Source of the DNA: Gammaproteobacteria bacterium
GTDB taxonomy: Bacteria > Pseudomonadota > Gammaproteobacteria > SZUA-152
DNA: 32,973 nucleotides
Direction of reading: 5' to 3'
Assembly: GCA_022627515.1 (NCBI GenBank)
Contig: JAKEGK010000297.1
Location: 1 to 32,973, forward strand
Below, piece by piece: positions 25,671 to 28,607 of the stretch. The notes under the pieces were generated by a model, which saw only the letters and a program-made list of their open reading frames with translations, had not been told where the DNA came from and made no database searches. The translations under genes and the position numbers were made by a program. Position 1 is the first letter of the stretch. Each line of letters opens with the position of its first letter.

Positions 25671-26507
<837 letters not shown>

Positions 26508-26515
26508 CTAACTAT

Positions 26516-26699
26516 TTCTACTTTGTTACATTAAATGGCCGTGTGCACAGCATGGGAAGCGGAGGCGTCGGGCAAGTCCGTTGGCGGCAGGGATGCCGCC
26601 ATCGAGCCTACATGGAGGTATTTACGGCGTGTCTTGCCAGACGCCTCCGCTTCCCGTGCCGGATTGTTCATTAACATAAGTTAAAGTAACAAAGTAGAA
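26516..26699. mobile_element. 184-bp MITE-like palindromic element upstream of dapB
   Basis: The element has nested symmetry. Terminal inverted repeats of 14 perfect bases (TTCTACTTTGTTAC at 26516-26529; GTAACAAAGTAGAA at 26686-26699) are flanked on both sides by CTAT (26512-26515 and 26700-26703), as expected for a 4-bp target duplication. Inside are 27-bp inverted arms (26550-26576 and 26633-26659) with one mismatch and one G.T pair, and within these a 7-bp hairpin GGCGGCA-GGGA-TGCCGCC (26583-26600). It has no coding capacity. The core looks like dispersed palindromic intergenic repeats I associate with gammaproteobacterial genomes, which I cannot verify here. There is no second copy in the window. 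Confidence 0.65.
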
Positions 26700-26774
26700 C
26701 TATAAAATCCCAATAATATTCAAAGATTGGTGGTTTGCCTTCTGAAATGGAAACCCATCCCGTTGGCTACCAAC

Positions 26775-27311
26775 TTACCAACTAATGTAGGCATAACCTT
26801 GTTGTTGCAATTCCATCAGGTCAGCCGCTCCGACTTCCACGATTTTCGCCGATTCGAGAATATCCTGTTCGGTCCATCCCAGCGACTTCATGGTGTTCCC
26901 GCAGGCGTGAAACTCCACACCATACTGCAACAGGCTGGCGATGCGTTCCCGTACCTCGTTGCTGACCGGACGTTCAGGTTTCTTGGCCAGAACATGAATA
27001 CCAGGACCAATGCTTACTACTACGATATGAATATTATCGCCATATTTACGCAGCATGGCCCCGACCGAAAACAACACGGCGTTATGGTAGGCTTCATCCG
27101 CCTTATTAAATTGATAGACAACCTTATTCTCTGCCGGATCACCGGGAAAACGCGGTTCTTCATTAGCGCCGGGATCGGGTTCAGCCGCTTGTGTCCTGCT
27201 GGATTTGGCCGCCAGAAAAAAACCGCCCGATGCCAACAAACCTCCAAGTAAATTGCGCCGCGCACGGCTGGTGGAATCACTTTTAAAAAGTTTGGGAATA
27301 CTGAATTTCAA
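26775..27311 (-). CDS. exported DsrE-family-like protein, probable Tat substrate
   Basis: A 178-residue protein. Residues 1-43 form an export signal: basic region with twin Arg (R18-R19 in SRARRNLLGG), a hydrophobic stretch at 20-36 and a likely cleavage site near TQA-AEP. The mature part alternates strands and helices like DsrE/DsrF/TusD proteins: VVYQFNKADEAYHNAVLFSVGAMLRKYG, IHIVVVSIGPGIHVL, then GVEFHACGNTMKSLG with a single conserved-type Cys at 137, and a C-terminal VEVGAADLMELQQQGYAYI. Cytosolic relatives carry persulfide sulfur; the periplasmic members have no established role. The TTG start (27309-27311) has AAGGA 6 nt upstream. It sits between dnaJ and dapB, which are neighbours in many relatives. 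Confidence 0.75.
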   Translation of the reverse strand: MKFSIPKLFKSDSTSRARRNLLGGLLASGGFFLAAKSSRTQAAEPDPGANEEPRFPGDPAENKVVYQFNKADEAYHNAVLFSVGAMLRKYGDNIHIVVVSIGPGIHVLAKKPERPVSNEVRERIASLLQYGVEFHACGNTMKSLGWTEQDILESAKIVEVGAADLMELQQQGYAYISW

Positions 27312-27476
27312 CCTCGTTCCTTCTACCTGTTGGTTTTTGGTGTTGTTATGAATGTGGTTTATAAATCCCGGTTAGAATCCCTTGTTTCAAATCCAGGCTA
27401 TATATCCAAAATTAAAGGCATAACTTGCACATGCCCCGGGTGATTAAAGAACGCTGTCATTGTACAGCTTTGCTGC

Positions 27477-28607
27477 TCAGGGTTTAAGATCGTCAAAAAA
27501 CTTCTTCACGCCATCCATCCAGGAACTTTCTTTGGGCCGGTGTTTTTTACCGTTCAGGCTGGCTTCAAGCTCCTTCAGCAATTCTTTCTGTCTACTGGTC
27601 AGATTCACCGGAGTTTCTATCGCAACGCGGCAAATCAGATCACCCGCGGGACCACCCCGCACTGATTTTACACCTTTGCCCCGCAAGCGGAACAATTTAC
27701 CGCTTTGAGTTTCGGCCGGAATCTTGAGTTTAACACGGCCTTCCAGCGTGGGCACTTCCAGTTCGCCACCCAATGTTGCGGTTACAAAACTGATAGGAAC
27801 TTCACAATAAAGATCGCTTTCATCCCGCTCGAAGATGGGATGGGGTTTCACTGCTATCTGAACATATAAATCACCCGGCGGCGCACCCCTGTCACCCGCT
27901 TCGCCTTCACCACTGAGCCGGATGCGGTCACCGTTGTCCACGCCCGGCGGCACTTTCACGGATAAGGTTTTCTGCTCCTGTACGCGGCCCTGGCCATGGC
28001 AGTTGGGGCAAGGGTCCTTAATGATTTCACCCGTACCCCGGCAATTGGGACAGGTTTGCTGCAGTGAAAAAAATCCCTGTTGCATCCGCACCTGGCCAAT
28101 ACCATTGCAGGTGCCACATTTGACCGGCGAAGTGCCCTTGCGTGCTCCACTACCGCCGCAATCCGAACATTCTTTCGTGGAAGGAACCCGGATTTTTACC
28201 GTCGTTCCCTGCACGGCTTCTTCAAGGCTGATTTCGAGGTTATAACGCAGATCAGCGCCGCGTCTTACGCGGGCGCCGCCCGCCGCTCTTCCGCCACCGA
28301 AAATATCGCCAAACACATCGCCAAAAATATCGCTAAAGGTGGCACCGCCCGCGCCAAAGCCTCCAAACCCAGCGGAACCGCCTTCAACACCGGCATGCCC
28401 AAATTGATCATATGCCGATCGTTTTTGCGCATCCGACAGGACATCGTAGGCTTCTTTTGCTTCCTTGAATTTTTCTTCGGCGGTTTTATCGTCAGGATTG
28501 CGGTCTGGATGGAATTTCATGGCCAAACGCTTAAAGGCTTTTTTTAATTCCGCCTCGCTTGCGTTTTTCGCAACTCCCAGAACTTCATAATAATCACGTT
28601 TCGCCAT
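27477..28607 (-). CDS. dnaJ: molecular chaperone DnaJ (Hsp40)
   Basis: A DnaK co-chaperone that delivers unfolded clients and stimulates ATP hydrolysis. It has 376 residues, the full type I architecture. The J domain covers 1-70 with HPD at 33-35, followed by a Gly/Phe-rich linker (about 75-110). A zinc-finger region with four CxxCxGxG repeats ([32 protein letters not shown]) follows, then the C-terminal substrate domain and dimerisation region. The ATG start is at 28605-28607. It follows dnaK by 110 bp, a gap that holds a strong hairpin. Confidence 0.98.

Follow-up and report, generated by a model that had tools for sequence, protein, structure and literature searches.

What is the nested palindrome that lies between dapB and a DsrE-like gene at 26512–26703 of the window (the whole 32,973-nt stretch of DNA that was analysed), and by what route did it come to lie there? 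The first-pass annotation had described 14-bp terminal repeats, 27-nt inner arms, a core hairpin and a flanking CTAT, all of which we found again in the sequence, and had taken the structure for a non-autonomous mobile element. What that reading overlooked is that the element is a composite, in which an IS701-type MITE holds a YPAL-type passenger; the explanation as a whole, in which the dapB-adjacent element is a complete IS701-type MITE carrying a YPAL/RU-2-type passenger, is very probably correct. Its parts and its two neighbouring genes are listed here:

25671–26486, minus strand: dapB, the downstream neighbour, an open reading frame whose orthologues in relatives are 67–74% identical
26512–26515, no strand: left target-site duplication CTAT, in direct repeat with 26700–26703
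26516–26529, plus strand: left 14-bp terminal inverted repeat TTCTACTTTGTTAC, recurring in the genome copies and as the ends of IS701-family elements of relatives
26530–26546, plus strand: left subterminal segment ATTAAATGGCCGTGTGC, common to long and short copies in the alignment
26550–26576, plus strand: left arm of the inner palindrome, from arm pairing and covariation
26582–26601, plus strand: core hairpin 1, stem TGGCGGCA/TGCCGCCA and loop GGGA, the NGGA loop being kept and the stems covarying in 70 cores from many genomes
26604–26629, plus strand: YPAL/RU-2-type core signature GAGCCTACATGGAGGTATTTACGGCG, including hairpin 2 (TACA-TGGA-GGTA), from the Ysr224 match, the RU-2 sequence and the strict signature
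26633–26659, plus strand: right arm of the inner palindrome, from arm pairing and covariation
26660–26685, plus strand: right subterminal segment, common to long and short copies, with an end match to IS701
26686–26699, minus strand: right 14-bp terminal inverted repeat, perfect inverted GTAACAAAGTAGAA, an inverted copy of the left end
26700–26703, no strand: right target-site duplication CTAT, in direct repeat with the left CTAT
26775–27311, minus strand: DsrE-like gene, the upstream neighbour, an open reading frame

The two inner arms, each of 27 nt, are 93% complementary, and the outer inverted repeat of the element stretches to 22 nt at 91%. Chance does not account for the structure: compared with 200 shuffles, the element folds with a z of -10.8 as DNA and of -10.3 as minus-strand RNA.

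The same ends recur throughout the 4.45-Mb source assembly of this gammaproteobacterium, in which the exact 14-mer TTCTACTTTGTTAC occurs 51 times (the reversed control pattern, 0 times), while each of the 23 family relatives has 0–2 occurrences. We delimited 22 complete family copies of 69–236 bp in the source genome, together with about 20 partial loci; many of these end at contig edges, so that some may be halves that belong to a single copy. The target duplication of 4 bp is perfect in 17 of the 22 complete copies and matches at three of four positions in the remaining five; shifted controls gave 0/22 or 1/22, and 4 bp is the only width that fits. The duplication is YTAR-like, with T at position 2 in 21/22 copies and A at position 3 in 21/22, and wherever there was enough flank to judge, the copies proved to be intergenic, lying outside open reading frames after the element had been excised in silico (17/17). 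The family is multicopy, shorter than 300 bp and without coding capacity. Copies with both ends and with differing 4-bp duplications were the check that the first-pass annotation had proposed for its reading, and this is the form that the 22 complete copies take; they do not have the inner hairpin only, which it had named as one outcome that would speak against mobility. One 233-bp copy is itself nested (L163:320-904, corresponding to G000:C40:5119-5703) within a 348-bp element that has degenerate versions of the MITE ends, a TTAA duplication and another palindrome with a YPAL-type core.

Twelve of the complete copies are short (69–81 bp), and each corresponds to a long copy minus its inner palindrome. 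The nested symmetry that had been noted at the outset stands as a structure, but the inner hairpin is no intrinsic part of the mobile unit: it belongs to a passenger that these 12 complete copies have lost. At their junctions, the short copies have CGTGC or GTGC (five copies), CGGGA (three), CCG (two), GC (one) or a single base (one), so that 10 of the 12 show deletion microhomology of 3–5 bp, where random deletions in the same sequence show a mean of 0.66. The inner unit is flanked on either side by CGTGC, readable as a target duplication or as a deletion repeat, and for the common 71-bp form the junction alone would fit either direction, insertion or deletion.

It is conceivable, if rather unlikely, that the 71-bp copies represent the ancestral empty MITE and that a YPAL-like element was inserted into it later, duplicating CGTGC, in which case the short forms would not be deletion products. 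The 71-bp form is the simplest one, the 5-bp CGTGC duplication that flanks the inner unit fits such an insertion, and YPAL (Yersinia palindromic sequence, about 168 bp) has been reported with duplications of 3–26 bp and with dyad-symmetric targets (PMC2229807). However, the forms of 78, 81 and 76 bp, with junctions at CGGGA or GC, retain pieces of one arm only and are therefore deletion products of long forms. This pattern favors loss of the passenger from a composite MITE, a loss that would have occurred through slippage from one short direct repeat to another at the stem base, leaving forms of 69–81 bp behind; the passenger would be unstable because it is a long palindrome. The core also appears to flip between the arms, to judge from three long copies (L014, L018 and L016) in which its orientation with respect to the outer ends is reversed. 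In the arms, six pairs have changed on both sides, a number that 0/500 shuffles reach and of which all slid controls fall short; templated repair between the arms and selection for the stem would both explain this covariation. On this account the composite would preserve, inside a single genome, the traces of a small repeat that rides a transposable element, flips, and is lost by palindrome deletion.

As to the passenger, the minus strand of 26575–26677 matches Rfam Ysr224 (RF02770) with 36.1 bits (E 5e-7), under the gathering score of 70. The sequence of RU-2/YPAL is printed in PMC2759123, and the core in the window differs from its core, TCGAGCCTACATGGATGTATTTACGGCGT, by one mismatch in 29 bases. 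The window element resembles YPAL/RU-2 (PMC2229807, PMC2759123) and Ysr224 in having this core after an NGGA-loop hairpin and within a long stem; the MITE carries a second repeat, a YPAL/RU-2-type two-hairpin core inside the loop of a 27–28 bp stem. Unlike them, it has stem arms unrelated to those of Yersinia, which sets it apart from the YPAL unit of about 168 bp, and its core rides an IS701-type MITE. Because the arms are unlike those of Yersinia and the Rfam score of 36 lies under the gathering score, we name the passenger YPAL-type and not YPAL. In the searchable literature, cores of this type come mainly from Yersinia, with RU-2 detected in Erwinia carotovora too, and when the literature text was searched by sequence to see whether the core had been named in bacteria other than enterobacteria, the RU-2 paper was the only relevant return.

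The core itself is widespread, with the strict 26-base signature occurring in 31 of 369 sampled gammaproteobacterial genomes, and up to 254 times in a single genome, against a control of zero. In most of these genomes, a long inverted repeat has the core in its loop, and the arm sequence differs by genome (mean arm score 18 vs 6 for mismatched pairs), and in the source genome, the stems of stand-alone cores are quite unlike those of the MITE. Hairpin 1, which lay outside the search pattern, has GGA in its loop in 66 of 76 cases, with a stem that varies and covaries, and in 70 of 77 the two core GGA motifs have a spacing of 20–21 nt. With a double NGGA-loop core conserved inside lineage-specific stems, it becomes testable what recognises these hairpins. 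In many gammaproteobacteria (L199–L209, L270–L309 and other loci), the long stems are near-perfect and reach 49 bp (L284); their arms are specific to the family inside any one genome, with no relation from one genome to the next. At L210, at L296 and in the 233-bp copies, hairpin 1 has a larger loop, extended by TTTATAACCTAAAGGTCACAAGTGCCCTTCGGGTA or by its last part, and the occurrence of TTTATAACCTAAAGGTCACAAGTGCCCTTCGGGTA in both stand-alone and MITE-borne cores suggests exchange between them.

The form of the two hairpins invites comparison with CsrA/RsmA sites, for which the SELEX consensus is RUACARGGAUGU and the loops are ANGGAN (PMC7652899): both core hairpins have ANGGAN hexaloops, 20 nt apart, and csrA is present in the host genome. 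Gene orientation nevertheless does not support the core as a CsrA site within messages: the loops fit, but the orientation is the wrong way or unbiased, in that the GGA strand is transcribed in 14 tandem gene settings and antisense in 28 (p 0.04), and at the locus in the window this strand, too, is antisense to dapB. Since the GGA strand is not preferentially transcribed, we keep the idea only as a speculative case, and it seems improbable that YPAL-type cores form a widespread, mobile RNA-binding module whose transcribed copies would bind or titrate CsrA, with IS701 MITEs as one vehicle of its spread.

Regarding the outer element, the first-pass annotation had suggested that the 4-bp duplication and the terminal sequence could identify the transposase, and together these led to the IS701 family. 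This family, which has been separated from the IS4 family, makes exactly 4-bp duplications and has the end consensus ---YACT-Y--YR (PMC2266710), with which TTCTACTTTGTTAC agrees at every fixed position. Through exact 14-mers in relatives we reached two IS701-family elements. The one in G008 is 1529 bp long, with TTCTACTTTGTTAC at the 3' side of the transposase gene, one mismatch at the other end and CTAA on both sides, and its 447-aa product matches NF033540 transpos_IS701 (NCBIfam, 313 bits, cut-off 150) and Pfam DDE_5; that in G019 is a disrupted copy with the 14-mer at the transposase 3' end and TTAG on both sides. The opposite ends of these two elements have 1–2 mismatches to the 14-mer. 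The closed genome G343 holds four relatives of 1476 bp with perfect ends TTCTACTTTGTCAG and duplications TTAG, CTAA, CTAG and TTAG. A transposase gene bounded by the same terminal repeats, for which the annotation had proposed a search, is thus present in relatives.

The right end of the MITE, taken as 23 bp of subterminal bases and terminal repeat in the 71-bp form, is 96% identical to the IS701 ends on the transposase 3' side in G008 and G019, and likewise 96% identical to an end in G012; at the left end, likeness to the IS ends is limited to the terminal repeat and a few A/T-rich bases. The window element thus has its terminal consensus, its duplication length and 23 bp of end sequence in common with IS701-family ISs and the MITEs derived from them, but it is without a transposase, belongs to a family of 69–236 bp as opposed to about 1.5 kb, and has its centre replaced by an unrelated repeat. 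IS5-group elements too make 4-bp YTAR-like duplications. Ends that derive from such a non-IS701 transposase family are nonetheless very improbable, given that relatives contain full elements of the IS701 family in which these ends and duplications recur, and that the ends agree with the published IS701 consensus (PMC2266710). The outer element is an ordinary kind of bacterial MITE, and ends, duplications and full-length elements together link this unnamed family to IS701.

Protein and Pfam searches of the source assembly (97% complete, 312 contigs) returned no IS701/DDE_5 transposase, and mobilisation in trans is for this reason an inferred step: an IS701-type transposase absent from the assembly would have cleaved the ends and integrated the element through a 4-bp staggered cut at YTAR. 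The family may have no resident mover, or its mover may have been left unassembled; a relic MITE family does not strictly need a resident transposase. We considered the elements at the contig edges of C115, C213, C298 and C251 as the autonomous partner and rejected them, as they look like other ISs, with TA-type targets, that were inserted into MITE ends. At these edges (L150, L151, L153 and L155), the ISs lie in or beside MITE ends; their own termini resemble (T)AACTAAAGTTTAGAG and CTAGAGTTTAGAGTC and follow TA in every case. A second IS701-type MITE occurs in the relative G011 (contig C711; L196:275-423), where a 149-bp element has the same ends, a TTAT duplication and an unrelated centre.

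At the locus itself, the distance from the end of the element to the start of dapB is 29 nt for the GTG (26486) and 35 nt for the ATG (26480), the latter agreeing with the distance of about 35 bp given earlier. The order dnaJ, DsrE-like gene, dapB (25671–28607 in the window) is conserved in most family relatives, and element ends occur upstream of dapB in 0/20 relatives with sequence there. The orthologous gap without the element, which the first-pass annotation had asked for, is therefore represented by 20 relatives; these belong to other genera, and a same-species empty site that is exact to the base is not among them. Far from occupying the same place in all relatives and occurring nowhere else, the element behaves as the non-autonomous mobile element that had been proposed, with copies, duplications, empty relatives and a partner transposase in agreement.

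A consensus scan of 26400–26850 gave no sigma70-like promoter, and a dapB promoter inside the element was rejected on the same scan; the main stem includes no classical terminator. That the hairpin evolved locally as a terminator or regulatory leader of dapB, and is not mobile at all, is scarcely credible, for its very stable minus-strand RNA fold and its intergenic position between two co-directional genes would suit such a role, but it is refuted by some 20 further complete copies with duplications at unrelated sites, and the element-free gap of relatives and the lack of promoter and terminator matches also count against it. As an IS701-type MITE in the dsrE-dapB gap, the element would fold into a very stable hairpin wherever a transcript reads through it and might in that way influence expression of dapB or of the DsrE-like gene. 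In being small, intergenic and able to form long hairpins in read-through transcripts, it resembles ERIC, NEMIS/Correia and other long-hairpin bacterial MITEs, from which it differs in its ends, in its duplications (4-bp YTAR in the window element) and in its transposase family.
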